DNA from: Candidatus Geothermincola secundus
GTDB lineage: Bacteria > Actinomycetota > Geothermincolia > Geothermincolales > Geothermincolaceae
Direction: 5' to 3'
NCBI GenBank assembly: GCA_015711755.1
Contig: JACVIY010000002.1
Location: forward strand, 1 to 50,867
Length of the DNA stretch: 50,867 bases
Shown here: positions 20,374 to 36,286 of the stretch, in pieces
Position numbering within the stretch: the first letter of the stretch is position 1
How the letters are laid out: each line of letters opens with the position of its first letter
Position numbers and translations under genes: made by a program
The notes under the pieces: generated by a model
Told to the model about the DNA's origin: nothing
Databases searched by the model: none
Seen by the model: only the letters and a program-made list of their open reading frames with translations

Positions 20374-21759
20374 TCACAGGAGAAGCGAGGATATGGCGCG
20401 GTCCAGGTCCTCCAGGTTGCGGCATACCCGCGCCTCCTTGAGATGGGGCATGTATTCCCCCATCACGCTGTCCCCGGTATCCCAGAAGGGCCGCGGCTCG
20501 GGGTTGAGCCAGATGATGCCGCGGGAACGGCGGGCCATGTTCTCCAGTGCTCCCGCGCAGGGGTCGTTCTGGTTGTTGCGCGCGTCCCCTATTATCAATA
20601 TGTAGGTGCGGTACCCCACGTCCTGCAGGTATTCATCGCAGAACTGGCGGAAGACGCTGCCGAAATCGGAGCGTGCGTAGTAGACGATGTCCGCCTCCTG
20701 CAGGGCCATGCGCACGCCCTCCTCGATGCTCTCCTCGTCGAAGAAGGAGGTCACCTCGCCCAGCTCGTCCACGAAGACGAAGGAGCGCACCCGGGCCAGG
20801 CAGTCCTGGATGGTATATACGAACCGCAGCATGAACTGTGATACCCTGGCCACCGAGCTGGATACGTCGCAGAGCACCAAGAGCTCCACCTTCTCCCGCC
20901 GGCGGCGCCTCATCACCAGGCGGAAGGGTATGCCCCCGTGCTGCATGTTGCGCCGCAGGGTGCCCTTGACGTCCAGGCGACCGCGGCTCGAGCTCTTCTC
21001 CCGCAGGGCCAGCTTGTTGCGCAGCCGCCGCGCCAGGGCGTAGACGGCTTCCCGCATCAGCTGCAGCTCGGCCTCGTCCAGCTCCGACAGCGGCCTTCCC
21101 ATCAGGCGCTTCATCCTCTCGGACCGCGAAGCCCCGCCGGCTCGCCTGGTCTGCTCCCTTTCCACGAACCGCCGCACCGCCGAGCGGAACTCTTCCCGCA
21201 GCTCTTCGAAAATCCGGCGCAGCTCCTCAAGAGAGCCCTCCTCCCATCCCGCTTCCCGCAGGAGCTCCAGCAGTCGCGCCAGCTCCGCCTCCGCTCCTTC
21301 CCAATCGAAGGAGTCGAAGATACGCCGTGTGTACATGCCCACCTGCTGCCGTGTTTGGAGCTGAGAGGTCCCCACGCCTCGGGCACCCTGCCTGATGAGG
21401 GTCTCCCATTCTCCTCCCTGCCCCGTCAAGAGCGTCATCAACAGGAGGGCACCCGCCGCTTCGCCTTCCCGGGCCGCGAGCTCCAGCTCTTCCTCGAGCT
21501 TCCTTTTGAGATCATCGTCCAGCGCCCCGTCATCCTCGGGGCGAGGGAGCCCGTAAAAATAGAGGGGGAACAGCTCCTCGAAGACGGAGAGGTCCCGCGA
21601 GCGCTTGATCAGGGTGGACCGCAGGGCCGTTTTGAAGAAAACGAGGTCGGTCAGGTCCACTGCCCTCAAGGCCCGCAGCGCGTCCATCACCTCAGCCGGC
21701 GACACAGGTATCCCGGCGCCGCGCAGTCCTTCGATGAAATCCATGACCCTATCCTGCAA
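20374..21759 (-). CDS. VWA-domain protein, CoxE type
   Basis: This 461-residue protein has a charged helical N-terminal region (1-285) and a von Willebrand A domain with the MIDAS motif DVSSS (Asp298, Ser300, Ser302), FVDELGEVTSFF and YILIIGDARNN. CoxE-like VWA proteins pair with MoxR AAA+ ATPases, as here (32 bases from the MoxR gene), to remodel or insert metal into partner enzymes. It is the last gene of a minus-strand run that begins at the X-succinate synthase (29504), so the client may be that enzyme. That link is inferred from position only. Confidence 0.88.
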   Translation of the reverse strand: MQDRVMDFIEGLRGAGIPVSPAEVMDALRALRAVDLTDLVFFKTALRSTLIKRSRDLSVFEELFPLYFYGLPRPEDDGALDDDLKRKLEEELELAAREGEAAGALLLMTLLTGQGGEWETLIRQGARGVGTSQLQTRQQVGMYTRRIFDSFDWEGAEAELARLLELLREAGWEEGSLEELRRIFEELREEFRSAVRRFVEREQTRRAGGASRSERMKRLMGRPLSELDEAELQLMREAVYALARRLRNKLALREKSSSRGRLDVKGTLRRNMQHGGIPFRLVMRRRRREKVELLVLCDVSSSVARVSQFMLRFVYTIQDCLARVRSFVFVDELGEVTSFFDEESIEEGVRMALQEADIVYYARSDFGSVFRQFCDEYLQDVGYRTYILIIGDARNNQNDPCAGALENMARRSRGIIWLNPEPRPFWDTGDSVMGEYMPHLKEARVCRNLEDLDRAISSLLL

Positions 21760-21791
21760 AGCCCGCCTCCCCGGTCTTCACGCAGTCTCCG

Positions 21792-22745
21792 TCAGTCCGC
21801 AAGCAGGCGCGCGCTCTCTGCTACTTTAGCGATGTCCTTCTCGTATTTGAGGATGACGTTGAGCGTACCCCTCAGTGTATCCCGGTCGAGCTTCTCCGCG
21901 TTGAGGACCAGCAGGGCCCGTGCCCAGTCCAGGGTCTCGCTGATGCCGGGGGGCTTCTTCAGGTCCAGCTTGCGTATGCGCTGCACCGCCTCCACCACCT
22001 GCGCGGCCAGCTCCTCCCTGATGCCCGGCACCTTGGCCAGCACGATGGCGGTCTCCCGTTCCCTCCCGGGGAAATCCAGGTAGAGATGGAGGCAGCGCCT
22101 CTTCAGGGCGTCGCTCATCTCCCGGGAGTTGTTGCTGGTGAGCACGACCATGGGGATATGCCTGGCGGTTATCGTGCCTATCTCGGGTATGGATACCTGG
22201 AAATCGGAGAGCACCTCCAGCAGGAAGGCCTCGAACTCCGGGTCGGATTTGTCCACCTCATCGATGAGCAGCACCGCCGGCTCATCGGAGATGATGGCCC
22301 GCAGCAGAGGCCGGGGGACCACGAACTTCCGGGAGAAGAAGACCTCGTCCTGCCGGGCCACTCTCTCCACCGCCTCGGCCAGGGAGCTGACCCCGGCCAG
22401 CTCCTGCGCCAGCACGTCCTTGAGGATCTGGGTGTAGAGCAGCTGCTTGGCGTATTCCCATTCATACAGCGCCTTGGACTCGTCAAGCCCCTCGTAACAC
22501 TGCAGGCGGATGAACTCCCATCCCAGGGCGGCGGCGACCACCTTGCCCAGATCGGTCTTGCCCACGCCCGCAGGGCCCTCGACCAGCAGGGGCTTTCGCA
22601 GCTGCTGCGCCAGATAGATAACTGTCGCCGTTTCCCGGCTGCATATATACCCCTGTTCCGCCAGCCGCTCCACGACCTCCTGCGGATCGCCGAACATCTC
22701 GCCGCTCCCTTCCCGGCCCGGGGGACCGCCCTCCCGGCCGCTCAT
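21792..22745 (-). CDS. MoxR-family AAA+ ATPase
   Basis: This 317-residue AAA+ protein has Walker A VEGPAGVGKTDL, Walker B AVLLIDEVDKSDPEFEAFLLEVL, sensor 1 VVLTSNNSREMSDALKRRCL and a lid with PPGISETLDWARALLVL. This is the CoxD/NorQ-like MoxR branch, which acts with VWA proteins in enzyme maturation; benzylsuccinate synthase operons carry a related ATPase (BssE). Its ATG overlaps the HD gene stop by four bases (ATGA). An internal ATG at 22697, preceded by AAGGGAG, would remove a 16-residue Gly-rich lead and fits the family equally well. Confidence 0.92.
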   Translation of the reverse strand: MSGREGGPPGREGSGEMFGDPQEVVERLAEQGYICSRETATVIYLAQQLRKPLLVEGPAGVGKTDLGKVVAAALGWEFIRLQCYEGLDESKALYEWEYAKQLLYTQILKDVLAQELAGVSSLAEAVERVARQDEVFFSRKFVVPRPLLRAIISDEPAVLLIDEVDKSDPEFEAFLLEVLSDFQVSIPEIGTITARHIPMVVLTSNNSREMSDALKRRCLHLYLDFPGRERETAIVLAKVPGIREELAAQVVEAVQRIRKLDLKKPPGISETLDWARALLVLNAEKLDRDTLRGTLNVILKYEKDIAKVAESARLLAD

Positions 22746-23488
22746 CGCTCCAGTTCCCCGCGCAGCCTGCGGTAGATGCGCATGCCTATATCCAACCCGC
22801 GGTCGATGAAATCCGGACCATAGCGGCGGCCGGTGCCGGTCCTGAAAGTGGACTTGATGCGCTCTATGCCCCCCATCGAGGGGAGGAAATGATCGAGCAA
22901 GACCGCCAGAGATATGTCGAACGGCGCCGCCATGGACCAGACCGTGCTGATGAAGTTGTCGGGGCCCCAGCGGAACTTATCCGCATCATAAAGCGAGTCG
23001 GAGAGCAGGCGGCAGGCGGGTTCTTCCAGCGCCTCGGTCTCCCGGAAAGCCTCATGGTTGCGGATGGCCGCGGCCACCGCCTCTATCTCCCATGCTTCCA
23101 ATCCCCTCTGAAACAGTATTCCCGCCGCCTCCTCTGCCCCGCGCCTGGCGTGATCGCTCTCCTCGCGCTTGACGTCATGCAGGGTGCCGGCAAGATGGGC
23201 CAGGCGCACCAGGCCGCGCACTTCGCCATCCGGCCGCCCGGCGGCCTCGATGATGATGACCGCCCCGGCATCAACGGCCACTTTGCGGACGTGGTCCAGG
23301 CCGTGCCCCAGCCGGTCGTAGCGCTCCCCCACCAGCCGCAGGCAATCCTGCACCAGCGTGTCCCTCTCGAAGCGGAGGCGCGATTCCCCCACCTCAGCCG
23401 CCCTCTCCCGGTAGAACAGAGGGGGCAGCACGGTCGCGGCTATCTCCTCGGAGACGCTGCGTGCCCATTCCAGCTCGCGCCGCTCCAT
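22742..23488 (-). CDS. HD-domain phosphohydrolase-like protein
   Basis: This 248-residue protein has an HD superfamily metal site: HGLDHVRKV, then LAHLAGTLHDVKREESDHARRGAEEAA (the HD pair in LHD), and AAAIRNHE, followed by LSDSLYDADKFRWGPDN. The layout resembles metal-dependent phosphohydrolases acting on nucleotides. The ATG at 23488 has GGGAGA upstream; a frame upstream to 23551 has no similarity. It overlaps the MoxR start by four bases, so it belongs to the same unit, but a role in hydrocarbon metabolism or enzyme maturation is not evident. A 287-base gap separates it from the zinc-ribbon gene upstream. Confidence 0.85.
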   Translation of the reverse strand: MERRELEWARSVSEEIAATVLPPLFYRERAAEVGESRLRFERDTLVQDCLRLVGERYDRLGHGLDHVRKVAVDAGAVIIIEAAGRPDGEVRGLVRLAHLAGTLHDVKREESDHARRGAEEAAGILFQRGLEAWEIEAVAAAIRNHEAFRETEALEEPACRLLSDSLYDADKFRWGPDNFISTVWSMAAPFDISLAVLLDHFLPSMGGIERIKSTFRTGTGRRYGPDFIDRGLDIGMRIYRRLRGELER

Positions 23489-23775
23489 CACCGTCTCCCG
23501 TCCGTGACCCTTTCCGGCTCGGCTCCGATCCCTCCAAAAGGCGGGCCCCATTCTGGAGCGAGCGCCGCCGCGGGGGATGCGGCCATTAGATTTTATCGGA
23601 TGAGGCGGGTTCCAGCTTCATGCGGTCAGCGCCTCTCCGCCGGCCAGAGAAAAAGAAGCCGCGGACGGCAGGCGTCGGTGAAGGGCAGACTCCTCGTTTT
23701 CAACCTGAGCCTTTCGCCTGCTGCCCGCGGCAGTGGGGCATGTTTCCGTTTTCCGCCGCGTTGGCTTTGCCGCCG

Positions 23776-24123
23776 TCAGGAGGACGGGGCTCCCGCCCTC
23801 TTGATGCGGCGCCTCGCCATTCTGATGAAGTCATCCAGCGGGGCAAGGTTCAGACAGCGGTTGAGCTCCGTCAGCTCCCGCAGGATAACCTCCGCCTCTC
23901 CCGTCATCCCCTTCCCCATGGCTTCTTCCAAGCGTCTGGCCATCTCCCTGGCTTTTTCCTCGTATCCCTCCTGCATCTCCTGGCGGTCGCAGATGACTTT
24001 GTTGCCGCAGCGGGGGCACGCCCGAAATACCAGGGGACCGCAGCACATAACATTGCCGATCATGCGGAAGAGCGCGGCCTCCCCCTGAAAGCCGCATCCG
24101 TCGCAAGTGATCATGGGATCCAT
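23776..24123 (-). CDS. Zinc-ribbon protein with helical tail (X-succinate synthase operon)
   Basis: This 115-residue protein has an N-terminal zinc ribbon MITCDGCGFQGEAALFRMIG followed by CCGPLVFRACPRCGNKVICDR (CxxC pairs at both knuckles), then an all-helical charged tail ending DDFIRMARRRIKRAG. The ribbon matches those of the two small proteins at 26249-26416 and 26413-26646, so three related ribbons occur in this operon. The ATG at 24123 follows AGGAGA by nine bases; a longer frame upstream is not coding. The function is unknown. Ribbon proteins of this kind could be accessory subunits or transcription-linked factors. Confidence 0.75.
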   Translation of the reverse strand: MDPMITCDGCGFQGEAALFRMIGNVMCCGPLVFRACPRCGNKVICDRQEMQEGYEEKAREMARRLEEAMGKGMTGEAEVILRELTELNRCLNLAPLDDFIRMARRRIKRAGAPSS

Positions 24124-24169
24124 GTCCCGCGCTCTCCTGCAGCTTTCCGCCTGAGCCCGGCGGGAGCCC

Positions 24170-24334
24170 TCAGCGCGCCTGGAAGGAGGCGCACTGGTCC
24201 GCGGCCTTGTCCGCGCTAACCGGCTTGGCCGTCCAGTACTGACTCTTTCCGTCATCCTCCCGCTGAACGCAGTCCCCACGGCCGGGGTCCTCTTCCAGGG
24301 GGAAGAACCATTTGCACTCGCTGCAGCTGGCCAT
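24170..24334 (-). CDS. Small HiPIP-like iron-sulfur subunit of X-succinate synthase (BssB/BssC-like), 54 residues
   Basis: This short gene encodes MASCSECKWFFP, then DPGRGDCVQREDDG, QYWTAKPVSADKAADQCASF. Four cysteines (4, 7, 22, 48) are spaced as in the BssB/BssC and AssB/AssC small subunits of fumarate-adding enzymes, which each hold one [4Fe-4S] cluster in a HiPIP-like fold; the phrase YWxxKPV is also typical. GAGGGAGG lies about ten bases before the ATG, 15 bases after the activase stop. The small subunits solubilise the large subunit and control its active site. It is easily missed because of its length, and a second candidate subunit lies at 26651-26953. Confidence 0.85.
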   Translation of the reverse strand: MASCSECKWFFPLEEDPGRGDCVQREDDGKSQYWTAKPVSADKAADQCASFQAR

Positions 24335-24349
24335 TTTCCCTTTCCTCCC

Positions 24350-25273
24350 TCATCCGCCTACGGTCACTTCAAGGTCCCGCAACAGGAAGACCTCCACGAT
24401 CTCGCGCAGTCTTTCCTCGGGGTATCCCTCACCTTGCGGGAAGGGGTATTCCAATCCGAACACGCGGTATTTGGCTCCCGCATAGGGGTGGTATGGGAGC
24501 ACGTCCACTTCCAGGCCGCCTGCCGCCTGTTGCCGCAGCCCGGCCACGAAAGCGGCGGTGGCCTTCAGGTTTTCCTCATCATCGTTCACCCCGGGTATGA
24601 GCGGCACCCGCACCCGCATGGCCACTCCCGACTCCGCAACCCTGCGGGCGTTCTCCAGGATGAGGCCGTTGGAGCGCCCGCAGAAGGCGCGATGCCTGTC
24701 AGGGTCCATGTGCTTGATGTCGTAGAGCACGAAATCGGCGCCCTCAAGGGCCTTTTTCAGCTTCTCCCAGGGCGCGTGCCCGCAGGTATCCAGGGCGGTG
24801 TGTATGCCCCTTTCCTTTGCCGCTTTCAAGAGGGCCGCCGCGAACTCCGGCTGGGCCAGGGGCTCACCTCCGGAGAGGGTCATGCCGCCCCCTGAATTGC
24901 GGTAGAAGGGCTTGTCCCGCTCCACCTCCGCCATTATCTCCTCAACGCCGGCCTCCCTACCCCAGACCACCATGGCCTCATGGGGGCAGGCCTCGGCGCA
25001 AGAAAAGCAATCGATGCACCTGCCCTTGTCGATGCGCGGCCTGCGTTCCCCCGCCATGGATATCGCCCCCGCCGGACAGATCTCCATGCAAGTTCCGCAA
25101 CCCTCGCAGTTGGGCGAGTAGGGGAAGACCTCCGGGAAGCGCCGATTTCCCTCGGGATTGTGGCACCAGCGGCAGTTGAGCAGGCATCCCTTGAGGAAGA
25201 CGGTGGTGCGGATGCCCGGTCCGTCGCATAGGGAATATGTCTGTATGTCGGTGATGTACCCCTTGATGTCCAT
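24350..25273 (-). CDS. Glycyl radical enzyme activase 1 (radical SAM)
   Basis: This 307-residue activase generates the glycyl radical by 5'-deoxyadenosyl chemistry. It carries the radical-SAM motif C30-x3-C34-x2-C37 (KGCLLNCRWC), two inserted ferredoxin clusters (CEGCGTCMEIC and CIDCFSCAEAC) typical of activases outside the PFL type, the SAM-binding GGGMTLSGGEPL and VRVPLIPGVNDD. It lies nine bases downstream of a second activase. One of the pair should serve the X-succinate synthase of this operon. The other could serve the glycyl radical enzyme at 15510-17888, which has none beside it. Confidence 0.93.
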   Translation of the reverse strand: MDIKGYITDIQTYSLCDGPGIRTTVFLKGCLLNCRWCHNPEGNRRFPEVFPYSPNCEGCGTCMEICPAGAISMAGERRPRIDKGRCIDCFSCAEACPHEAMVVWGREAGVEEIMAEVERDKPFYRNSGGGMTLSGGEPLAQPEFAAALLKAAKERGIHTALDTCGHAPWEKLKKALEGADFVLYDIKHMDPDRHRAFCGRSNGLILENARRVAESGVAMRVRVPLIPGVNDDEENLKATAAFVAGLRQQAAGGLEVDVLPYHPYAGAKYRVFGLEYPFPQGEGYPEERLREIVEVFLLRDLEVTVGG

Positions 25274-25282
25274 TTCCGCTCC

Positions 25283-26230
25283 CTATCCCCCGATGGTGGT
25301 CTTGATGCCCCTGCCCTCCAGGATCTCCCGGAAGTCCTCAACGTCGTATTCGGAGAGGCTTTCCGTCTCCTCATAGTCCCATTCCCTCCCCAGCCAGCGG
25401 TACTTGTCCTGGCACCAGTTGTGGAAGGGCAGTATGTCCACCTGAAGCAGGGCCGGTTTGAGCGTTTCCAGGAACTCGGCTATACGCCCCATCTGCTCGG
25501 TGGAGTCGTTGAAGCCGGGGATCACCGGCACCCGCACTATGATGCTCTCGCCCTCACAGGCAAGCCGGGCCAGGTTGGCGAGTATGGGCGAGTTGCTCAC
25601 CCCGGTGCGCAGAAGGTGCAGCTTTCCGCTCAGGCACTTGATGTCGTAGAGAAAGATGTCCACGTAGGGCCGGAGGGAATCCAGTACCTCCCAGGAGCAG
25701 AACCCGCTGGTGTCCAGGCAGGTATGGATGCCGCGGCGCTTGGCCTCACTCAGCAGCGCCAAGGTGAAGCGGGGAAAGCTGGTCGGCTCACCGCCGGTCA
25801 GCGTGAGCCCCCCCTCCGAGTTGTTGTAGAAAGGGATGTCCCGCTCAACCTCATCCAGTATCTCTTCCACGGTCATCCTCTCGCCCACCCGCAACAGGGC
25901 TTCATAGATGCACGCTTCCACGCATTTCATGCAGCGGTCGCACTTCTCGCGGTCTATCTTGTGGTAATGACGGCCCTCGTCATCGGGGTCCAGTTCCACC
26001 GGAGGTTGTACGGCACCTTGCGGGCACGCGTCGAAGCAGCGTCCGCACTGCCGGCAGAGGCTCTGCTTCCAGTAGATCTCGGGCCTGAAATCGATGCACT
26101 CGGGGTTATGGCACCAAGCACACTGCAGGGCGCATCCCTTGAGGAAGACGGTGGTGCGGATGCCCGGCCCGTCGTTTATGGAGAACCTCTGGATGTTGGT
26201 GACGTAGGCCTTCTCGCCGTCCTCGTGCAT
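25283..26230 (-). CDS. Glycyl radical enzyme activase 2 (radical SAM, BssD/AssD-like)
   Basis: This 315-residue activase has the radical-SAM motif C33-x3-C37-x2-C40 (KGCALQCAWC), two ferredoxin-like cluster motifs (CRQCGRCFDAC and CDRCMKCVEAC), GGLTLTGGEPTSF and VRVPVIPGFND. The sequence from VTNIQRFSINDGPGIRTTVFLKGC is close to the other activase but the two differ throughout, so they are paralogs, not a recent duplication. As the first activase gene after the synthase and its small subunit, it is the more likely BssD-type partner, by order only. Confidence 0.93.
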   Translation of the reverse strand: MHEDGEKAYVTNIQRFSINDGPGIRTTVFLKGCALQCAWCHNPECIDFRPEIYWKQSLCRQCGRCFDACPQGAVQPPVELDPDDEGRHYHKIDREKCDRCMKCVEACIYEALLRVGERMTVEEILDEVERDIPFYNNSEGGLTLTGGEPTSFPRFTLALLSEAKRRGIHTCLDTSGFCSWEVLDSLRPYVDIFLYDIKCLSGKLHLLRTGVSNSPILANLARLACEGESIIVRVPVIPGFNDSTEQMGRIAEFLETLKPALLQVDILPFHNWCQDKYRWLGREWDYEETESLSEYDVEDFREILEGRGIKTTIGG

Positions 26231-26248
26231 GCCCGCCGCCCCGCCGCC

Positions 26249-26416
26249 TCAGGCCTTCGCCGCCTTCTCGCGGCGCTCCTCCTCCAGCTCGTTGCAGACC
26301 ACCCAGTTGTAGCATTTCGGGCACTCGCGGTATGCCGTCTCCGCATCCAAGGTCGTGTTGTAAAGGTAGCGGAATTCGGACTTGTGCCCCTCGAAGCCGC
26401 ATTTATCGCATCTCAT
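26249..26416 (-). CDS. Small zinc-ribbon protein, 55 residues
   Basis: The 55-residue product MRCDKCGFEGHKSEFRYLY, then AYRECPKCYNWVVCNELEEE, is a rubredoxin-like or zinc ribbon with CxxC at both ends and a charged helical tail. It is a paralog of the ribbons at 26413-26646 and 23776-24123. GGAGG lies about seven bases before the ATG, and that ATG overlaps the stop of the preceding ribbon gene (ATGA). The upstream part of the longer open frame is not coding. Function unknown; it belongs to the synthase operon by position. Confidence 0.78.
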   Translation of the reverse strand: MRCDKCGFEGHKSEFRYLYNTTLDAETAYRECPKCYNWVVCNELEEERREKAAKA

Positions 26417-26646
26417 CTCGCATCCTCCGTATCCTCCCTGATGAACTTCTTCCCGAACACCGGCGAAAGCCCCCAGGGGCGCGCCGGCTCCCGCAGTTCC
26501 CGCTCCTCCTCCACCTCGTTGAAGTAGTTGATCTCGCGGCAAACGGGGCAGCGCCGCAGGGAGACCGCCCCGATGCCCTCGGCCGGCCCCAGGTAGCGGA
26601 ACTCCGCCAACGACCCCCTGTATCCGCAGCGCACGCAGCCCGCCAT
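26413..26646 (-). CDS. Small zinc-ribbon protein, 77 residues
   Basis: This 77-residue protein starts MAGCVRCGYRGSLAEFRYLG and continues VSLRRCPVCREINYFNEVEEE, giving a CxxC...CxxC knuckle as in the neighbouring 55-residue protein, with a different C-terminal tail (GLSPVFGKKFIRED). It starts four bases after the stop of the 100-residue iron-sulfur-type gene and its own stop overlaps the next ribbon gene. The pair are probably made together as accessory proteins of the synthase. Family not recognised. Confidence 0.78.
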   Translation of the reverse strand: MAGCVRCGYRGSLAEFRYLGPAEGIGAVSLRRCPVCREINYFNEVEEERELREPARPWGLSPVFGKKFIREDTEDAR

Positions 26647-26650
26647 GCCT

Positions 26651-26953
26651 CTACTTCTCCTCGATTTGCCTCTGGGGACGGAAGGTGGGGTCCCACATGA
26701 ACTCGCTGGTGTCGGTGCGGATGCGGTCTATCTCCTTGTACTGGGAGCACTGAGAGGCGTCGGTGTTGTCGAAGACCACCTTGTTCAGCTCGTTCTCCAC
26801 GATCACCGCGCAGTGGCCGTCGCCCGCCGCAGAGGCGGAGTGCTGGCGGAAGTGCTCGCACTTGCCGCAGGCTTTCTCGGGCATCGCCTGCCTGCCTTTC
26901 TGCACCCCCCCCATCACGAACTGATCCCGAAGCTTGGCCCAATCATCGCTCAT
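26651..26953 (-). CDS. Small HiPIP-like subunit of X-succinate synthase (AssC/BssB-like)
   Basis: This 100-residue protein has four cysteines, 29 and 32 (ACGKCEHF), 48 (GDGHCAV) and 69 (ASQCSQY), spaced like the [4Fe-4S]-binding small subunits of benzylsuccinate and alkylsuccinate synthases. The EKACGKCEHFR start and the C-terminal FMWDPTFRPQ are compatible with that family. It directly follows the large-subunit gene (46 bases), the usual operon position. A second, shorter candidate subunit at 24170-24334 would complete the alpha-beta-gamma set known for Bss. It is likely a structural partner that shields the radical. Confidence 0.8.
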   Translation of the reverse strand: MSDDWAKLRDQFVMGGVQKGRQAMPEKACGKCEHFRQHSASAAGDGHCAVIVENELNKVVFDNTDASQCSQYKEIDRIRTDTSEFMWDPTFRPQRQIEEK

Positions 26954-26999: not shown

Positions 27000-29504
27000 T
27001 CAGCTGCCCAGCGACTGCACGTTGCGGGCGATGATGGTGTCCTGGGTCTTCTTGTTGAGGTCGATGAAGTGAGCCGAGTAACCGGCTATGCGCACGATGA
27101 GCTCGGGGTACTTCTCCGGCTCCTTCTGGGCCGCCTTAAGCGTCTCGTTGTCCACCATGTTGAACTGCACGTGGTCGATGCCCAGATCCGCCCAGGTCTT
27201 TATGTAGGAATGCCAGATCTGGAAGCCCTTCTCCCCCGCCAGCTGGGTGGGATTGAGCCGCTGGTTGAGCAGGGTGGCTCGCACCGCCCCGATGTGGTCT
27301 ATCTTGGCGACAGAGCGGAGCACTGCCGTGGGCCCCTTCTTGTCCAATCCCGCCCCCGGCGAGCAGCCCCCATCGTAAAGGGTATCGCCCAGCCGCCTCC
27401 CGTTAGGCAGCGCCCACACTTTGGTGGCATTGGTAACGTAGGCGGCGATATTCTCCGGAAGCGGCGGCCAGGGGTTCCCGGTGGGATCCTTTATCTCCCA
27501 CGAATGGGCGGCCACGTCGTTATGGCAGCGCACGTGGATTTGATCCACATAATCGTCATCGTTGCCCCACTTGGGAGCGCGCACGAAATCCATGCGCATC
27601 TCCTCATAGCCCTCCCAGTTGTTGCGGAGGGCCTCGATGAGCTGAGCCATGGTGTATTTCCTCTCATCGAAGACGAGCTTTTTCACCGCGGCCAGGGAAT
27701 CCCCCGTCTCCATCCAAGCGAAGAAGGTAATCCAGGAGTTGCCCCGCTCGCTGGGGTGAGCGGAGTCCACCCCCAGGTCCACGCAGCGCTCGTAGATGGC
27801 CGAGAGGAATGGCCGCGGGTCCAGCTCGGAGGAGTTGTAACGGCCCGCCCCGGTCACCTTGGTGAGCGTGTCCATCATCCACTTGATCTGGGTGTACCAG
27901 GCTTGATAGAGCTCCTCGAAGCTCTCGAACTTGGAAGCGTCCCCGGTGTGGGGGCCGAACTGCATCTGCAGCACCTGATCGAACCCGTCGAAGAGCGCGT
28001 ATTCCATGGCCTTGGCGGCGATGATGGTGGCATTGGCCATGCGGAAAGGCTGACAGCCCCATTTGGTGTCGGGGCAGGGGGACATGCAGGCCTGATGCAC
28101 CCAGCGCCTTGCTTCCTTGAGGGGATGGCGGTGCCAATGCATGGCGTTGGCGATGAGGATGGGATCGTTGCGCATGGAGGGATAGCCCAGCCCCTGGCGG
28201 ATGCACTCGAAGACGTTGCGCAGCGTCTGCATGCGCACCTGTGGATGGTAACGGAAGGCGAAGGTGGGGTTGGCCACCCTCACCAGCCGCGCCGCCTCCA
28301 GCAGGCAGTCGGTCATGTCGTTGCAGGCGTCGGTCCCGTCCTCGTTGACCCCCCCCAGGGTCCATACCCAGGTACCGGTGATGCCCTGCAGGGTGTCTCT
28401 CGCCAGCATCAACCAGAACCAGCCCACTTCGTAGCAGCGGATGAGGAACTCTCCGGTGAGGTCGAGGGCCTCTTCCTTCGTCAGCACCTTGTCCTGATTG
28501 ACATCCTTGTCGTAGAAGGGCCCGTGCCAGTAGTCGGGCCGGGCGGGCCAGGCCCCGTCGCAGGCCTCGTAGCGGGTTAGTATCTGTACGAAGTGGTCGA
28601 ACTGCAAGGATTCCCACAGATGCTCCGGCGGTCTTGCCGGCACCTTCCAGCAGGTCTCGGCGATGCGTTCCAGCTCCTGCTTGCGCTGCGGGTCGGTCTC
28701 GAAGTTCTCGGCGATTATGCGCGCCAGCCGGCTGTAGCGGCGGGCCCAGCGCACGGCCGCCTCCAGGGTTATCTTCATGGCCTTCCAGATGTCCAGCTTC
28801 TTGTAATACTCGTAGTCCTCAGGCTCGGGCACCCTGCGGTATATCCTCTCCTCCGCCTCCGCCATTTTCGCGTCGATCTCGGCGATGATACCCTCGAAAC
28901 CCAGGCGGAACATGTAGTCCCACTGCTTGGTGCAGTAGCCGATGCGGTGTATGGGAAGCCCCCAGCCTATGGCCCCGGTCATCAGCTTGACTATCTCCTC
29001 AGGGGGCAGCTTGGAGAACATCTTGGTCCCGGCGGTCTGGGGGTTCCAGTAATCGCAGATCTCCCTGATGATGCGCAGGCTCCGCTCCTCCGGCTCGGGG
29101 ATGACCGTGCGGTCGTTGTAGAGGTCCTCGTTGAGGAGGAAGAGTATCTCGGGGTGCCAGACGATGGTATGCGGGCGCGAGCCGAGGTAGCCCATTATCT
29201 GAGCGTGGTCCTGGATGAAGATGGTTATGTTGTCCCATACGTGGGCCAGGGCCTTGGCATGCCTGATGATCAGGGGGTCATGTTCGTTGGCCTGAAAGGC
29301 CTGGGTATAGAGGATGGGCCTTTCCAGATCCACTTTCACCCCGGGCTGATAGCCCGAGCCCTTGGCCCCCTTCTTCCAGACCGCCTTTCGCAGGTAATCG
29401 AGGCGTTTGGATCGCTTCTGCTCGGCCCACCACCACCATTGCCCGCTCTTTTCGATCTCCTCGATGCTCCTCATCTCCACAGCCGACATCTTTGGACCCC
29501 CCAT
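27000..29504 (-). CDS. X-succinate synthase large subunit (alkylsuccinate/benzylsuccinate synthase family glycyl radical enzyme)
   Basis: This 834-residue enzyme has the active-site loop VHQACMSPCPDT (Cys473), the fumarate-binding Arg488 fifteen residues later (QPFRMANAT), the segment QFGPHTGDASKFESFEELYQAW, and the radical loop VRIAGYSAHFIDL (Gly808). The spacing matches benzylsuccinate synthase, where I recall Cys493, Arg508 and Gly829. Such enzymes abstract hydrogen from a hydrocarbon and add the radical to fumarate. The linked mutase, CoA ligase and decarboxylase-like genes favour an alkane or alkyl substrate over toluene, whose route uses a CoA-transferase (bbs genes). AAGGA precedes the ATG at 29504. 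Exact substrate is inferred. Confidence 0.9.
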   Translation of the reverse strand: MGGPKMSAVEMRSIEEIEKSGQWWWWAEQKRSKRLDYLRKAVWKKGAKGSGYQPGVKVDLERPILYTQAFQANEHDPLIIRHAKALAHVWDNITIFIQDHAQIMGYLGSRPHTIVWHPEILFLLNEDLYNDRTVIPEPEERSLRIIREICDYWNPQTAGTKMFSKLPPEEIVKLMTGAIGWGLPIHRIGYCTKQWDYMFRLGFEGIIAEIDAKMAEAEERIYRRVPEPEDYEYYKKLDIWKAMKITLEAAVRWARRYSRLARIIAENFETDPQRKQELERIAETCWKVPARPPEHLWESLQFDHFVQILTRYEACDGAWPARPDYWHGPFYDKDVNQDKVLTKEEALDLTGEFLIRCYEVGWFWLMLARDTLQGITGTWVWTLGGVNEDGTDACNDMTDCLLEAARLVRVANPTFAFRYHPQVRMQTLRNVFECIRQGLGYPSMRNDPILIANAMHWHRHPLKEARRWVHQACMSPCPDTKWGCQPFRMANATIIAAKAMEYALFDGFDQVLQMQFGPHTGDASKFESFEELYQAWYTQIKWMMDTLTKVTGAGRYNSSELDPRPFLSAIYERCVDLGVDSAHPSERGNSWITFFAWMETGDSLAAVKKLVFDERKYTMAQLIEALRNNWEGYEEMRMDFVRAPKWGNDDDYVDQIHVRCHNDVAAHSWEIKDPTGNPWPPLPENIAAYVTNATKVWALPNGRRLGDTLYDGGCSPGAGLDKKGPTAVLRSVAKIDHIGAVRATLLNQRLNPTQLAGEKGFQIWHSYIKTWADLGIDHVQFNMVDNETLKAAQKEPEKYPELIVRIAGYSAHFIDLNKKTQDTIIARNVQSLGS

Positions 29505-29882: not shown

Positions 29883-31247
29883 TCATGAGCCGTAGAGGGC
29901 CATCAACTCCCCCAGATCCTCAAGCCGCTCCAGGCCCTTGAGCATATCAAGAGTCCTCTCCGCCACCTCGCGGCTCTTCAGCAGCTGTACGCATTCCAGG
30001 TATTTATCATGGATCTGCTCCTCGCTCATGGCATTGCCCGGCTCGCCCAGCGGTCTTTCCACATCCGCCTCGAAGACCGCCCCGTCCTTCATGGCCACGG
30101 TCAGATGGGCGGCGAAGGGGCTGACGGCCTCCCCCTCCAGGTCCTGCCAGACAAAGCGGGATATGGCCTCGGAGATATCCTCGCCGACAACCCTCTCATC
30201 GGTGAATTGGCGCACCCCCACCTTTCCGTCCAGGAGCGCGGCGCTCACGCAGAACTCCAGACTGAACTTTCCCTCCAGCCCGGAGCGGGGGCGGTGGTAA
30301 GTCAGCACGCCCCTCAGCCAGGAAGGAACCCGGCACTCCACGCGCTCCAGCGACGCTGGGTCCATATCGCCCCTGTCCTCGAGCACCTGCCGCCTTACCA
30401 GCAGCGCAGCGTCTATCGCTCCCTGGGGACCGCGGCAGCAGGGGTAGGGCTTGAAGCTCAGACCGGGGTCGAGCAATTCCCAAGGTCGTCCCAGAGAGGA
30501 GGCCATCTCGGCCGCCCGATGAGTATCCCCGGACAGGCAGCGGGCCAGGCCGTTCTCCCCGAAGAGGCAGTCGGGGTTGGCGGTGAACCTTTGTTCCGCG
30601 AGCTGCGCCGCCATGACCCCCTGCATGGCGGCGAGTCCCGCGTGCAGGGGTTTGGTCATGGTCCCGAAATTGGCGCGCACTCCGTTGGCCATGGAGCAGG
30701 CAATACCCAAAGCGTGGGCGGCTTCTTCCTCCCCAAGGCCCAGCAGCCTGCTGCAGGACGCCGCTGCTCCCAGCGTGCCCATGACGCTGGTCATATGCCA
30801 GCCGATGGCGTAGGGGTTGCCCCCCAGAGCCTGCCCCGCTTTGGCGGCGACTTCCAGCCCCGCTATGTAAGCGAGGATGCAGTCGCGCCCGCTTCTGCCC
30901 CTCTCCTCGGCTATGGCTATCACCGCCGGCACCAAAGCCACCGAGGGATGGCCGAGCATGCGGAAGCACACGTCATCGTAATCCAGGGCATGCGCCGCCG
31001 TCCCGTTGGCCAGGGCCGCCCAAGGAGCCGAGGTCTTCGAGCCGTTCAGGAGCAAGGTCGAGGACGGACGCCCCCCCAAGGCCACCGCCCACCGCGTCGC
31101 GATGCGCGAGGATTCGTCCTCCAGTCCCGCAAGGGCCACACCCATGCAGTCGATGATGGGCAGAACGGCGGCCCTCTTCGCTTCCTCCGGGATGTCCCCA
31201 TAATCCAGCCCGCATACCCAACGAGCAACATCCATCAATTCATCCAT
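29883..31247 (-). CDS. MmgE/PrpD family protein (2-methylcitrate dehydratase/aconitate decarboxylase-like)
   Basis: This 454-residue protein has the MmgE/PrpD fold: an N-terminal helical domain with PIIDCMGVALAG, GTAAHALDYDDVCFRMLGHPSVALVPAVIAIAEE, and GWHMTSVMGTLGAAASCSRLLGL, then a C-terminal domain with FKPYPCCRGPQGAIDAALL. Members dehydrate 2-methylcitrate, decarboxylate cis-aconitate or act on other tricarboxylates and succinates. Here it lies alone between the divergent synthase operon and the mutase operon, on the minus strand, with AAGGGGG upstream of the ATG. It might process a substituted succinate or help regenerate fumarate; neither can be shown. Confidence 0.85.
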   Translation of the reverse strand: MDELMDVARWVCGLDYGDIPEEAKRAAVLPIIDCMGVALAGLEDESSRIATRWAVALGGRPSSTLLLNGSKTSAPWAALANGTAAHALDYDDVCFRMLGHPSVALVPAVIAIAEERGRSGRDCILAYIAGLEVAAKAGQALGGNPYAIGWHMTSVMGTLGAAASCSRLLGLGEEEAAHALGIACSMANGVRANFGTMTKPLHAGLAAMQGVMAAQLAEQRFTANPDCLFGENGLARCLSGDTHRAAEMASSLGRPWELLDPGLSFKPYPCCRGPQGAIDAALLVRRQVLEDRGDMDPASLERVECRVPSWLRGVLTYHRPRSGLEGKFSLEFCVSAALLDGKVGVRQFTDERVVGEDISEAISRFVWQDLEGEAVSPFAAHLTVAMKDGAVFEADVERPLGEPGNAMSEEQIHDKYLECVQLLKSREVAERTLDMLKGLERLEDLGELMALYGS

Positions 31248-31431: not shown

Positions 31432-31589
31432 ATAACTCGCTGATGCTTGACGCCTTGCCGAATCGATGCTTAATATACGTCTTGATGCGGCCCGATCATA
31501 ACACAGCCACACGGCACTGTAAAGAAGTTCCTTTTGCGGCTATGTTTCAGCAATACAGGCAAATCTGAAGGCCAGATATATTCTTTTCC

Positions 31590-31639
31590 GTCACACAAAT
31601 GACGTCGCGGGGCTCCGCCTCGAAAGGCGGGACTGTGAC
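31590..31639 (+). promoter_or_regulatory. Leader hairpin upstream of the B12 mutase small subunit
   Basis: An outer stem GTCACA (31590-31595) with TGTGAC (31634-31639) encloses a tight hairpin CCGCCT-CGAA-AGGCGG (31615-31630). It ends about ten bases before the ribosome site AAAAGGAG, so it could affect translation. Confidence 0.4.
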
Positions 31640-31662
31640 TCGGATGAAAAGGAGATGGTGCC

Positions 31663-32079
31663 ATGGCGCGGAGTTCAACCGAACCCGGAAAGAGGGTGAG
31701 GGTCATGGTCGCCAAGCCGGGGCTGGACGGCCATGACCGAGGCGCGAAAGTCCTGGCTCTGGCTCTGAAGGATGCCGGCATGGAGGTCATCTATCTGGGA
31801 TTGCGCCAATCACCCGAGAGCATCGCCCGCAGCGCGGTGGACGAGAATGTGGACGTGGTCTGCCTCAGTTGTCTTTCGGGAGCCCACAACCACCTCTTCC
31901 CCGAAGTGGTGAGGAAGCTGCGCGAGATGGGGGCGGGGGATATCCCCGTACTGGGAGGAGGCCTCATACCGGAGGAGGACCGCGATTTCCTGAGGAGCGA
32001 GGGCGTGGCCGAGGTCTTCTCCCCCACCGTGCCGATGAAGGAGGTCGTCAGGCGTATAGAGGAGTTGGCGCAGCGATGA
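31663..32079 (+). CDS. Cobalamin-binding small subunit of an acyl-CoA mutase (McmB/McmS-like)
   Basis: This 138-residue B12-binding domain has the DxHxxG motif in PGLDGHDRGAKV (the base-off histidine), then SCLSGAHNHLFPEV and GGGLIPEEDRDFL. It is the small subunit of a two-chain adenosylcobalamin-dependent mutase whose large subunit starts 54 bases downstream. An AAAAGGAG site precedes the ATG. In two-subunit methylmalonyl-CoA mutases and in the carbon-skeleton mutases linked to alkylsuccinate synthase (mcmS type), this protein carries the cofactor. It is the first gene of the mutase-ligase operon. Confidence 0.94.
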   Translation: MARSSTEPGKRVRVMVAKPGLDGHDRGAKVLALALKDAGMEVIYLGLRQSPESIARSAVDENVDVVCLSCLSGAHNHLFPEVVRKLREMGAGDIPVLGGGLIPEEDRDFLRSEGVAEVFSPTVPMKEVVRRIEELAQR

Positions 32080-32133
32080 GCCGCGGCTCCCGACCGCCTC
32101 GGATGACCTTGGTCGGTGATATGGAGGTGACGG

Positions 32134-33804
32134 ATGACCAAGGATAATGATCCCGCGACGCTTCGCCAGGCTTACGAGAACTGGCGCAATGAAGTGCTGG
32201 CCCGAACCGCCGCCAAATGGGGGCGCAGCCTGGAAGACATGCCCAAGAGCGTCTATACGCCCCTTGACCTGGAGGATCACGATTACCTGAGGGATCTGGG
32301 CTTCCCCGGGCAGTATCCTTTCACCCGCGGAGTCTACCCCACCGCCATACCCGGCGGGCTCTTCGGCGTCCGCCAGTACTCCGGTTTCGGCACGGCCGAG
32401 GAGACCCGCGATCGGCTGCGCTACCTCATCGGCAGAGGCCAAGCCGGGTTCAGTCTGGCCTCAGACCTTCCCACCCAGATCGGCTACGACTCCGACCATC
32501 CCCTGGCCCGGGGAGAGATAGGCCGCATCGGGGTGGCCATCGATACATTGGAAGATTTGGACACGATCCTTGAGGCCTTCGAAGATAAGACGCAGCCCTT
32601 CGTGAGCCGCCCCTCTTTCACCGCCAACTCTCAGGCCGCGGTGATCATCGCCATGTTCGTCGCCCTTGCCGATAAATACGGGGTGCCCCTGGAGAACATC
32701 ACCGGCACCATACAAAACGACATCCTCAAGGAGTACGTGGCCCGCGGCACCTACATCTACCCGCCGCGTCCCTCGCTGAAGCTGGTGGGCGACACCATCG
32801 AGTTCTGCGCGAAGCGCATGCCCCGCTTCAACTTCATCAGCATCTCCGGCTACCATATCCGCGAGGCGGGCGCCTCACCCGCCCAAGAGATAGCCTTCAC
32901 CCTTTCCAACGGCATAGCCTATGTCGAGGAGGGCCTGCGCCGCGGCCTCTCGGTGGACGATTTCGCCCCGCGCATCTCCTTCATCTTCGCCTCGGGCATC
33001 CTCTTCTTCGAGGAAGTGGCCAAGTTCCGCGCCTGCCGGCGCATCTGGGCCAGGACCATGAAGGAGCGTTTCGGGGCATCCAAGCCTGATTCCCAGAAGC
33101 TCCGCTTCGCTTCCGGCTTCGCCGGCTCCACTTACACCTCCCGCCGCCCGCTCAACAACATCATACGAGCCACCATCGAGTGCTTCGCTTCCATAGCCGG
33201 GGGAGCCACCGGCAGCGCGGTAGCCCCCTATGACGAAGCCATCTGCCTCCCCACCGAGGAAAGCAGCCTCATCGCTCTGGACACGCCGCGCATACTGGGG
33301 TACGAGGCCAAGGTCACCGACGTTAACGACCCCCTGGGGGGGTCCTACTACGTGGAAGCCCTCACCGATCAGCTGGAGGAGGAGGCTCTCTCCATCATGC
33401 GCGTTATCGAGGACATGGGAGGAGCGGTCGCGGCAATCGAGAACGGCTACATGCAGGGGGAGATCGCCAAAGGGGCTTACGAGCAGTTCAAGCAGATGGA
33501 GTCGGGGGAGAAGACGGTGGTGGGTGTGAACCGCTTCGAGACCGAGGAGTTCACCGTATGCGAGACCTTCCGGCTGGACCCCCAGGTGGAGGAAAAACAA
33601 CTGAAGCGTCTGGCTGCGGCTAAGAAAAGGCGCGATCCCGCCGCGGTCAGGGATTCGCTGAAGCGCTTAAGGGGAGCGGCCGAGAGGGATGAGAACGTGA
33701 TGGAGCCGCTCCTGGATGCGGTCAAGCGCAATGCCACGGTGGGCGAGATATGCGACGTCTTCCGCGATGTATGGGGGGAGTACAGGCCGCCTCAGGGAAT
33801 CTGA
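32134..33804 (+). CDS. Acyl-CoA mutase large subunit (methylmalonyl-CoA mutase family)
   Basis: This 556-residue catalytic subunit (TIM barrel, no B12 domain) has VRQYSGFGTAEET (Tyr82, matching MCM Tyr89), TIQNDILKEYVARGTYIYPP (Arg204, matching Arg207, which binds the substrate carboxylate) and SISGYHIREAGA (His241, matching His244). Tyr plus Arg indicates a dicarboxylyl-CoA substrate, unlike isobutyryl-CoA mutases (Phe and Gln). The usual FRPW just before VRQY is replaced by GGLF, and about four residues are inserted near VSRPSFTAN. These changes suit a bulkier substrate such as an alkylsuccinyl-CoA. GGAGG lies six bases before the ATG. Confidence 0.92.
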   Translation: MTKDNDPATLRQAYENWRNEVLARTAAKWGRSLEDMPKSVYTPLDLEDHDYLRDLGFPGQYPFTRGVYPTAIPGGLFGVRQYSGFGTAEETRDRLRYLIGRGQAGFSLASDLPTQIGYDSDHPLARGEIGRIGVAIDTLEDLDTILEAFEDKTQPFVSRPSFTANSQAAVIIAMFVALADKYGVPLENITGTIQNDILKEYVARGTYIYPPRPSLKLVGDTIEFCAKRMPRFNFISISGYHIREAGASPAQEIAFTLSNGIAYVEEGLRRGLSVDDFAPRISFIFASGILFFEEVAKFRACRRIWARTMKERFGASKPDSQKLRFASGFAGSTYTSRRPLNNIIRATIECFASIAGGATGSAVAPYDEAICLPTEESSLIALDTPRILGYEAKVTDVNDPLGGSYYVEALTDQLEEEALSIMRVIEDMGGAVAAIENGYMQGEIAKGAYEQFKQMESGEKTVVGVNRFETEEFTVCETFRLDPQVEEKQLKRLAAAKKRRDPAAVRDSLKRLRGAAERDENVMEPLLDAVKRNATVGEICDVFRDVWGEYRPPQGI

Positions 33805-33904
33805 AAAACGAGGCTTGAGGCGCCGGAGTGCCGTGCCCTGCGTGGACTGCCTTTGCCGCCGTCCGTCATAGATCTTTGTAAGATGAGAACAGGGGGTGTT
33901 CGAG

Positions 33905-35443
33905 ATGAACGTGGGGGAGTGGGCTTATAAGCGATCCATCAACCCTCTTTCCGGGAACAAAGTGGCCTTCGTGGCCGAGGGCAGGGAATACACTTACCGC
34001 GATTTCAACAAGAGGGTCAACCGCCTGGCCAACGGCCTTCTTTCGCTGGGGCTGCGCAAAGGGGACCGCGTGGCCGGACTCTTCTTCAACTGCGTCCCCT
34101 TCATGGACGCCTATTTCGCCTGCGCCAAGTGCGGCTTCATCTGGGTGCCGCTGAACTTCCGCCTCACCGCCTCCGAGCTGGCGGGCCTCTTCGAGGATAC
34201 CCGGCCCCGCGCCTTTCTCTTCCATTCGGAGTTCAACGACCGGGTGACCGAGCTTCGGGGACTGTACGACAAACCGCTTGAACTATGGGCGGTAGCGGGC
34301 GAGCCGGTGCCCGACTTCGCCGAGGACTACGAAGCGTGGGCAGCCGGTTTCGACGATTCGGAGCCGAGGGCGCCGGAGCCGCCGGACATGGAGGACCCCC
34401 AGATGCTCATGTTCACCTCCGGTACCACCGGCAAGCCCAAAGGCGCGCTGCTGCCCCACCGCAAGACCTTCTTCAACACCTTCAACGACGTTCTCGAGCT
34501 TCTCTTCGATTCCAACGCCGTATCCCTGGTCTCCATACCCATATTCCACTCGGGGGGCATCAACATCATCACCATGCCCACCTTCTACTGCGGGGGCACG
34601 GTCATCTTCCAGAAGTTCTGGAACCCCCAGGAGGCTCTCCAGATCATCAACGACCGCAAGGTGACCCATTTCGGGGCGGTGCCCACCATGCTGCAGATGA
34701 TGCTGGACGTGCCCGACTTCGAGCGCTATGACCTGAGCTCCCTGCGGGGAGTGGGCATCGGCGGCTCTCCCGCCTCCCGGGAGCTCCTGGAGAACATCCG
34801 CGACCGCATGAAAGTGCCCCTGGTGGCCCAGGTCTTCGGATGCACCGAGACCTCGGTGGTATGCTACTGCACCAACATGGAGAAGATAGGCAGCGCGGGG
34901 CTGCCCCAGTTCCTGGGAGACGTCAAGGTGATCAAGGAGGACGGGAGCGAGGTCACTCCAGGTTCCGGTGAAGTGGGGGAGGTCTGCGCCAGGGGGCCCA
35001 TGGTCATGTTGGGTTACTGGAACAACCCCGAGGCCACCGCCGAGGCCATCGTCGACGGCTGGTTCCACTTCGGCGACCTGGCCACCGTGGACGAGGACGG
35101 ATACATCTACATAGTCGACCGCAAGAAGGACATGATCATCAGCGGCGGCGAGAACATCTATCCCGCCGAGGTCGAGAAGGTGCTGTCCACCCACCCCGCC
35201 GTCGCCGACGTGGCGGTGATCGGCGCGCCCGATCCAAAATGGGGCGAGGTGGGGCTGGCCCTGGTGGTCCCGCGGGAGGGGCGGGAAATAACCCTTCAGG
35301 AAATAGAGGATTTCTGCGAAGGCAAACTGGCCCGCTATAAGATACCCAAGCAGCTTTTAAAGGTGGAGTCCATCCCCCGCACCCTCACCGGTAAGATACT
35401 GAAGAAGGAGCTGCGGCAGGCCTACCTGGAACAGCGGAGCTGA
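33905..35443 (+). CDS. Acyl-CoA synthetase (AMP-forming), AssK-like candidate
   Basis: This 512-residue ANL-superfamily ligase has the P-loop MFTSGTTGKPKGALLPH, the A5 region QVFGCTETS, GWFHFGDLATVDEDGYIYIVDRKKDMIISGGENIYPAEVE and the catalytic Lys in PRTLTGKILKKELR. It would activate a carboxylic acid with ATP and CoA. In alkane-degrading anaerobes a similar enzyme (AssK) forms alkylsuccinyl-CoA for the mutase; the location between mutase and crotonase genes fits. I choose the ATG at 33905 with GGGGG eight bases upstream rather than the GTG at 33896. Substrate is inferred from context. Confidence 0.92.
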   Translation: MNVGEWAYKRSINPLSGNKVAFVAEGREYTYRDFNKRVNRLANGLLSLGLRKGDRVAGLFFNCVPFMDAYFACAKCGFIWVPLNFRLTASELAGLFEDTRPRAFLFHSEFNDRVTELRGLYDKPLELWAVAGEPVPDFAEDYEAWAAGFDDSEPRAPEPPDMEDPQMLMFTSGTTGKPKGALLPHRKTFFNTFNDVLELLFDSNAVSLVSIPIFHSGGINIITMPTFYCGGTVIFQKFWNPQEALQIINDRKVTHFGAVPTMLQMMLDVPDFERYDLSSLRGVGIGGSPASRELLENIRDRMKVPLVAQVFGCTETSVVCYCTNMEKIGSAGLPQFLGDVKVIKEDGSEVTPGSGEVGEVCARGPMVMLGYWNNPEATAEAIVDGWFHFGDLATVDEDGYIYIVDRKKDMIISGGENIYPAEVEKVLSTHPAVADVAVIGAPDPKWGEVGLALVVPREGREITLQEIEDFCEGKLARYKIPKQLLKVESIPRTLTGKILKKELRQAYLEQRS

Positions 35444-35485
35444 AAAGCGGGTAAAGGGGCAGAGGGGCGAGGAGGAGGAACGGTG

Positions 35486-36286
35486 ATGACCGAAGGGAAC
35501 GAGCTGTTGGTGGAGAGAGACGGGCCGGTGGCACTGCTGACCCTGAACCGCCCGGAGAAGCGCAACGCCCTGTCCTCTTCCCTTCTGGTGTCGCTGGTCG
35601 GGGCCCTGCGGGACCTGGAAGCGGAGGGCGAGGTGCGCTGCGTGGTCCTGCGCGGGGCCGGCGATAAGGCCTTTTCCGCCGGGATGGACCTCTCCGCTCT
35701 GCCGGAAGGCATACCCGCCGACATACAGTCCCTCATCGAGGAGAAGGGGCCGCTGGCCTACGGCCTGGACGCGGTGGAGGAATGCCCGCTCCCGGTCATC
35801 GCCATGATCCGCGGTTGGTGCCTGGGGGCGGGCTGCGAAACCGCCATGGCCTGCGATCTGCGGGTGGGCGCCGCGGGGTGCCGCATGGGCATGCCGCCGG
35901 CGCGCCTGGGCATCGTCTACCCGCCGGAGGGCCTAAACCGCTTCTTACGCGCCGTCGGGCCCTCGGTGACCCGCAAGATATTCCTCACCGCGCGCTACTT
36001 CGAGGGCGAGGAGGCGCTGGCCGGCGGGATGCTGCACTACCTGGTGCCGGACGACCGGCTGGAGGAGTTCACCATGGATCTGGCGCGTGAGGTGGCCGGG
36101 CTCGCTCCCCTTTCCCTGGCCGGGCATAAGCGCTCCCTTTTCCACCTCACCCGCCCGTCCCCTCTTTCCGCGGAGGCGCGGTCGGAGATCGACGGGCTGA
36201 TGGCCCGGGCCCTGGCCAGCGAGGATGCCCGCGAGGGCCTGGCCGCCTTCGTCCAGAAGAGGGAGCCGCGTTTCACCGGAAAGTAG
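35486..36286 (+). CDS. Crotonase-superfamily protein, candidate (alkyl)malonyl-CoA decarboxylase
   Basis: This 266-residue crotonase has the oxyanion-hole segments FSAGMDLS and WCLGAGCETAMACDL (Glu118), and ARLGIVYPPEG with Tyr145. The second catalytic Glu of enoyl-CoA hydratases is absent. As I recall E. coli methylmalonyl-CoA decarboxylase (YgfG/ScpB), its Glu113 and Tyr140 align here, and the stretches TARYFEGEEALAGGMLHYLV and the final EDAREGLAAFVQKREPRFTGK-like end also match; its His66 is Met67 here. Decarboxylation of alkylmalonyl-CoA is the step needed after the mutase. It could still be a hydratase or isomerase. Confidence 0.8.
   Translation: MTEGNELLVERDGPVALLTLNRPEKRNALSSSLLVSLVGALRDLEAEGEVRCVVLRGAGDKAFSAGMDLSALPEGIPADIQSLIEEKGPLAYGLDAVEECPLPVIAMIRGWCLGAGCETAMACDLRVGAAGCRMGMPPARLGIVYPPEGLNRFLRAVGPSVTRKIFLTARYFEGEEALAGGMLHYLVPDDRLEEFTMDLAREVAGLAPLSLAGHKRSLFHLTRPSPLSAEARSEIDGLMARALASEDAREGLAAFVQKREPRFTGK

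Follow-up and report, generated by a model that had tools for sequence, protein, structure and literature searches.

The closest described systems for anaerobic alkane degradation by fumarate addition are the (1-methylalkyl)succinate synthase (MASS) of strain HxN1, MasBCDE (PDB 9o8u; PMC12358834), and the alkylsuccinate synthase (ass) loci of Desulfatibacillum alkenivorans and Smithella. The C2 epimerase of the alkylsuccinate pathway has been described as unknown (PMC12358834, the MASS structure paper of 2025; PMC4561516), and Smithella that degrade alkanes have been noted to lack alpha-methylacyl-CoA racemase (PMC6776118). A passage in PMC8878594 (2022), citing Liu et al. (2020), places Candidatus Syntraliphaticia, probably a new class of Actinobacteria, in a thermophilic methanogenic community, where metatranscriptomics pointed to the activation of alkanes with fumarate. 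Here, we analyse a 50,867-nucleotide stretch (the window) of the uncultured Geothermincolia-type actinobacterium Candidatus Geothermincola secundus (GenBank assembly GCA_015711755.1, contig JACVIY010000002.1), which represents one complete contig from a metagenome-assembled genome (MAG) of 2.39 Mb in 169 contigs, 83% complete. From its sequence, a locus within the window very probably specifies an Ass/Mas-type pathway for activating n-alkanes anaerobically; n-alkanes are the best-supported substrate class, with chain length and activity predicted.

A MasD-type catalytic subunit

Three genes of the locus are:

27000..29489 (-), assA/masD, alkylsuccinate synthase catalytic glycyl-radical subunit, from 58% identity to MasD, active-site residues, tree and fold
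29883..31247 (-), MmgE/PrpD-family protein, proposed alkylsuccinate C2 epimerase (Pfam MmgE_PrpD; matches to Bacillus subtilis IRG1, iminodisuccinate (IDS) epimerase and cis-aconitate decarboxylase (CAD))
35483..36286 (+), protein of crotonase fold, proposed as alkylmalonyl-CoA decarboxylase (Pro in place of the second hydratase Glu; Tyr140 of YgfG retained)

In phmmer searches, the 834-residue glycyl-radical enzyme (GRE) scored 1126 bits (E-value printed as 0) against MasD of strain HxN1, to which it is 58% identical, 542 bits against BssA/TutD and no more than 340 bits against other solved GREs. The original prediction, made from the DNA letters, had proposed an X-succinate synthase (XSS) with Cys473, Arg488 and Gly808; these positions proved exact and align with MasD Cys477, Arg492 and Gly814 (catalytic cysteine, fumarate-binding arginine and glycyl-radical glycine), so the arginine on which that proposal depended is kept. 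Of nine MasD sites compared (W185, F192, Y194, C477, R492, T598, F600, E690, G814), with roles taken from the MASS structure paper (PMC12358834), eight are kept, including five of the six Mas-type pocket residues (W185, F192, Y194, T598, F600, E690). The sole change, F192 to Ile, falls at a position that varies likewise in D. alkenivorans and Smithella, and TutD departs from MasD at five of the nine sites in the same alignment.

A tree of 60 GRE rows placed the enzyme inside the Ass/Mas clade (36 rows; support of 100 in the Shimodaira–Hasegawa-like approximate likelihood ratio test, SH-aLRT), as the original prediction had anticipated, and not with dehydratases or decarboxylases; the Bss-type clade (100) and other GREs were separate. 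An AlphaFold2 model (mean predicted local distance difference test score, pLDDT, 79.8; low over roughly the last 40 residues) had 9o8u (MasD) as its top fold match, with a template modelling (TM) score of 0.93. By sequence, this protein is a true MASS catalytic subunit, with predicted activity, and the tree and MasD-like pocket residues rule out a Bss-type or non-XSS placement. Action on alkylbenzenes or other arylalkanes, as by Bss-, Nms- or Ibs-like enzymes, would accord with the XSS fold and fumarate arginine in common with BssA and with the co-activation of alkylbenzenes reported for Mas-type strains (PMC4561516), but is very improbable given the separation from the Bss-type clade, a pocket of MasD rather than Bss type and the linkage of mutase and acyl-CoA synthetase genes to the GRE.

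The open reading frame (ORF) of this gene was listed from 29504, but its start is probably M6 (29489) because a TAG lies directly upstream of M6 in five relatives. Stop-codon recoding in the relatives' GREs was rejected, since the in-frame TAGs fall just upstream of the likely start; the GRE frame of one relative (G015) carries a TAA. A second GRE on the contig, at 15510-17963 (-), is not an XSS and has Ser at the Arg position; the genome has a third on contig C41. The tree also contains a deep clade (loci L036, L037, L038 and L039, from genomes G284, G145, G113 and G340), sister to all XSSs included (SH-aLRT 99), which keeps the Cys and Gly, has an Arg close to where the fumarate Arg lies and is accompanied by a nearby homologue of a crotonase or acyl-CoA synthetase; it is possibly a new XSS-like enzyme.

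Candidates for epimerisation and decarboxylation

In the proposed pathway, one or both of the radical-SAM activases would activate a glycyl-radical complex of MasBCDE type, which would form (1-methylalkyl)succinate from an alkane and fumarate, and the MmgE/PrpD protein may epimerise C2 of this product or of its CoA ester. Going by family and gene context, the acyl-CoA synthetase would form the CoA ester, the B12 mutase would shift the carbonyl-CoA group to yield (2-methylalkyl)malonyl-CoA, CO2 would be removed by the crotonase-fold protein and not by a carboxyltransferase of PccB type, and the branched acyl-CoA would enter beta-oxidation.

The MmgE/PrpD gene (29883-31247), missing from the earlier list, sits between the two halves of the locus and is likewise embedded in the deltaproteobacterial ass loci of D. 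alkenivorans and Smithella; most of the deltaproteobacterial ass loci examined have it. A PrpD of the window type occurs in 11/11 ass-positive Geothermincolia compared with 1/18 other genomes of the class (Fisher p 3.5e-7). Among Desulfobacteria, with a threshold of at least 160 bits, 22 of 23 ass-type genomes had it, as did 7 of 12 Bss-type genomes and none of 20 without a strong XSS match (p 2e-11, ass-type versus none), although both p-values overstate the number of independent events as the genomes are related to one another. The Bss-type occurrences, some with linked mutases, led us to reject PrpD as a strictly alkane-specific marker. In one Bss-type genome (G469 C1:1128412-1129716, locus L194) the reading frame of the PrpD homologue contains two TGA codons, either a pseudogene or a case of selenocysteine.

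Six residues (D89, D91, H100, H151, K199, H202) are present in 34/34 ass-linked PrpD rows and are common to IDS epimerase and B. subtilis IRG1. The predicted structure (pLDDT 89.3) gave TM scores of 0.86-0.87 to 7bra, 2hp0 and 6r6u, and is closer to CAD and IDS epimerase than to 2-methylcitrate dehydratase. By sequence and model, the protein belongs to the CAD/IDS-epimerase subgroup of MmgE/PrpD, with predicted epimerase activity; in a tree that is weakly resolved at depth, PrpDs from actinobacteria and those from deltaproteobacteria do not group as a single clade.

By elimination and by substrate analogy with iminodisuccinate, we regard PrpD as the leading candidate for the alkylsuccinate C2 epimerase, a role to which, taken by itself, we give a little under an even chance. 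The rival reading, that PrpD is a 2-methylcitrate dehydratase or another dehydratase or decarboxylase recycling propionyl-CoA to fumarate, with no epimerase function, we also place somewhat below even: the family name, the need for fumarate regeneration and the presence of PrpD in Bss-type Desulfobacteria speak for it, a single succinate isomer being the reported product of alkylbenzene users (PMC4561516). The comparisons with characterised enzymes tell against such a dehydratase, with TM scores by query length of 0.84-0.87 to CAD/IDS epimerase versus 0.47-0.80 to PrpD/MmgE and identities of 26-32% versus 13-19%, as does the close tracking of assA by PrpD. Two sources may bear on the precedence of the epimerase proposal, to judge by the words they contain: PMC7180275, with MmgE and PrpD once each, may already have noted PrpD in ass clusters, and PMC12290011, on methylsuccinate utilisation ('PrpD family' 24 times, 'epimerase' 15 times), is a possible direct precedent.

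We take the marks of a YgfG/ScpB-type decarboxylase to be loss of the second hydratase Glu with Tyr140 and His66 kept. The window crotonase, those syntenic with it in relatives and the ass-linked crotonases that match best all have Pro in place of the second hydratase Glu and keep the Tyr140 equivalent, but not His66, in partial agreement with the decarboxylase-like character originally claimed for this protein. A full-length PF01039 carboxyltransferase (PccB) was not found in 10 of the 11 ass-positive Geothermincolia, several of them 95-99% complete (G015 has one), by a search that was positive in 12 of 14 control genomes, and this absence favours the crotonase as the best decarboxylase candidate, with activity predicted from sequence. 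That it is instead an ordinary beta-oxidation enoyl-CoA hydratase, with decarboxylation left to another enzyme such as a carboxyltransferase, seems rather unlikely. Such a hydratase would suit its top family score, to an enoyl-CoA hydratase subfamily model (215 bits, under the 291 cut-off), the lower score against the methylmalonyl-CoA decarboxylase model (181 bits, also under cut-off), the Pcc-type protein assigned to this step in published ass pathways (PMC6776118; PMC10811727) and the PF01039 gene inside the ass locus of D. alkenivorans; the Pro substitution, the retained Tyr and the missing PccB point the other way. Taken together, the assignments of PrpD as C2 epimerase of (1-methylalkyl)succinate and of the adjacent crotonase as alkylmalonyl-CoA decarboxylase form a tentative proposal, which we hold less probable than its negation.

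Genes for the intermediate steps lie on the plus strand:

31663..32079 (+), small, B12-binding acyl-CoA mutase subunit (157 bits to TIGR00640, above its cut-off)
32134..33804 (+), large acyl-CoA mutase subunit of the plain methylmalonyl type (617 bits to TIGR00641, above its cut-off)
33896..35443 (+), AssK-like acyl-CoA synthetase (498 bits to NF004837, above its cut-off)

The synthetase is about 35-40% identical to ass-linked synthetases of deltaproteobacteria and about 70% to those of relatives. The mutase large subunit retains the residues equivalent to the Tyr and Arg of methylmalonyl-CoA mutase (Tyr82/Arg204), and its best match in the compared set (51%) is the mutase near the 76%-identical GRE of locus L047. 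Most ass-linked acyl-CoA mutases (22, for example in L060, L084 and L043) carry an insertion of 13-19 residues near the substrate-binding Tyr, which could be diagnostic of alkylsuccinyl-CoA mutase.

Several observations weigh against the pathway as drawn. At the position before the Tyr89 equivalent where 22 other locus-linked mutases carry the insertion, the window mutase has 0 inserted residues, while the loci of its closest relatives hold the insertion type; plain-type mutases also occur in some other ass loci, and the window enzyme might serve methylmalonyl-CoA instead. His66 of YgfG is replaced in the window crotonase and is not conserved among the ass-linked crotonases. By sequence, the pairing of two activases with two GREs on the contig (the second being the non-XSS enzyme) appears ambiguous, and at 83% completeness absences from the MAG are weak evidence. 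The original claim of four steps in one locus stands in that each has a candidate gene, but rearrangement is less certain than was stated, and the decarboxylase-like reading of the crotonase lacks one of its marks.

As for the rest of the genome, the beta-oxidation and electron-acceptor search originally proposed gave 23 acyl-CoA dehydrogenase matches in the MAG itself; CdhC was present in 17/17 genomes searched, and DsrA, the only electron-acceptor marker looked for, was over cut-off in 0/17. Carbon monoxide dehydrogenase/acetyl-CoA synthase, many acyl-CoA dehydrogenases and no DsrA match fit acetogenic or syntrophic life on alkanes better than sulfate reduction.

Accessory genes, host and distribution

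The remaining genes of the region are:

26651..26953 (-), MasB-like (MASS beta subunit, high-potential iron-sulfur protein (HiPIP) fold), 100 residues, four Cys (phmmer 9o8u_B E 3e-9; syntenic in relatives)
26413..26646 (-), MasE-like (MASS delta, rubredoxin-like) subunit 1, 77 residues, CxxC...CxxC (phmmer 9o8u_D E 7e-5)
26249..26416 (-), MasE-like subunit 2, 55 residues (41% identity to subunit 1; kept in relatives and deltaproteobacterial ass loci)
25283..26230 (-), GRE activase 1, radical SAM (TIGR02494, 345 bits, over cut-off)
24350..25273 (-), GRE activase 2, radical SAM (TIGR02494, 342 bits)
24170..24334 (-), MasC/BssC-type gamma subunit, 54 residues (Pfam BssC_TutF E 1.8e-16; MasC E 2e-10; TutF E 4e-8)
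23776..24114 (-), MasE-like subunit 3, 112 residues, start inferred (40% identity to subunit 2; kept in relatives)
21792..22745 (-), MadB-like MoxR ATPase (scores under family cut-offs)
20374..21759 (-), MadC-like VWA protein (scores under family cut-offs)

All ORFs called at 27000-29504, 25283-26230, 24350-25273, 21792-22745 and 20374-21759 (-) and at 31663-32079, 32134-33804, 33896-35443 and 35483-36286 (+) were verified. Close gene packing from 29489 down to 23776, where the start of MasE-like subunit 2 overlaps the stop of subunit 1, is consistent with a single operon. Where two HiPIP-like subunits had been predicted, the locus holds five small Cys-rich proteins (one MasB-like, one MasC/BssC-like and three MasE/rubredoxin-like paralogues), so that homologues of all three MASS accessory subunits (beta, gamma, delta) are present. 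The predicted activases were borne out as two radical-SAM genes; activase 1 scores 297 bits against the BssD model, under that model's cut-off, and is about 50-55% identical to the activase in most deltaproteobacterial ass loci, and activase 2 is present in only some relatives' loci. The MoxR/VWA pair (20374-22745), originally counted as part of the locus, probably lies outside the conserved locus: comparison with the BssE-type pair of Desulfatibacillum showed no significant similarity, which led us to reject a role as BssE-type chaperones, and the pair was not found in the relatives' loci.

Ten same-order genomes carry the synthase, and the locus is syntenic in same-order genomes; the alkane-type fumarate-addition locus predicted for an actinobacterium belongs to a real lineage. 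The nearest named relative is Ca. Geothermincola primus; others are Ca. Solincola. Mis-binning of the cluster from a deltaproteobacterium would agree with the closest GREs outside actinobacteria, 76% identical, coming from a MAG labelled Deltaproteobacteria. We consider it highly implausible, however: orthologous loci with conserved neighbours occur in several same-order MAGs from different sites, the full-length same-order GREs are 84-93% identical and form one supported clade, and the window contig carries ffh, ftsY and smc (within 1562-7926), counted here by presence and not by their own affinity. The same contig has a tRNA-Lys gene at 37490-37565. Beside the ass locus, relatives (L028-L034, L043, L044, L048, L104) have a biotin ligase gene and an OadA/PYC-like gene with a biotin domain, neither of which is in the window; the relatives' OadA proteins are 81-100% identical and possibly support oxaloacetate/fumarate supply.

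Comparison with known systems

The original prediction also spoke of a new lineage of anaerobic hydrocarbon users. Since Ca. Syntraliphaticia was reported in 2020 (Liu et al., 2020, via the passage in PMC8878594), alkane use through fumarate addition was already known from the phylum, and same-order MAGs with the locus were already public. Our literature search, with most subscription papers outside its coverage, returned no paper linking Geothermincolia by name with alkylsuccinate synthase. What the present analysis adds is that members of the class Geothermincolia, from several genera and sites, carry a complete Ass/Mas locus whose active site is of MasD type; hydrocarbon surveys in hot springs and the deep subsurface ought therefore to include this lineage. 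The cross-phylum comparison also yields testable gene assignments for the C2 epimerase and, in genomes without PccB, the alkylmalonyl-CoA decarboxylase; if true, these would fill the remaining gaps in the list of enzymes by which alkanes are degraded anaerobically through fumarate addition.

Set beside MasBCDE of strain HxN1, the window locus has a similar catalytic subunit (pocket residues shared except F192I) and beta, gamma and delta homologues, but differs in its three delta-like paralogues in place of one, its two activases and its actinobacterial host. With the ass loci of D. alkenivorans and Smithella it shares small and large mutase subunits, PrpD, activase, BssC, AssA, MasE-like proteins, crotonase and acyl-CoA synthetase. 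In a set of 22 loci from outside the actinobacteria, each with 7 kb or more of sequence on either side, 13 had PrpD, 15 the large mutase, 12 the crotonase and 10 the acyl-CoA synthetase. Gene order, however, is different in the window, the window mutase is without the insertion, neither MeaB nor a BssE-type ATPase/VWA pair was found in the actinobacterial loci, and D. alkenivorans additionally has PccB. Ca. Syntraliphaticia, a thermophilic paraffin degrader compared here only by its description in that passage of PMC8878594, resembles the window in actinobacterial alkane activation with fumarate. Finally, the scpA-argK-scpB-scpC operon of Escherichia coli also sets a mutase beside a crotonase-fold decarboxylase, as proposed for the window, but acts on succinyl/methylmalonyl-CoA and does so without fumarate addition.

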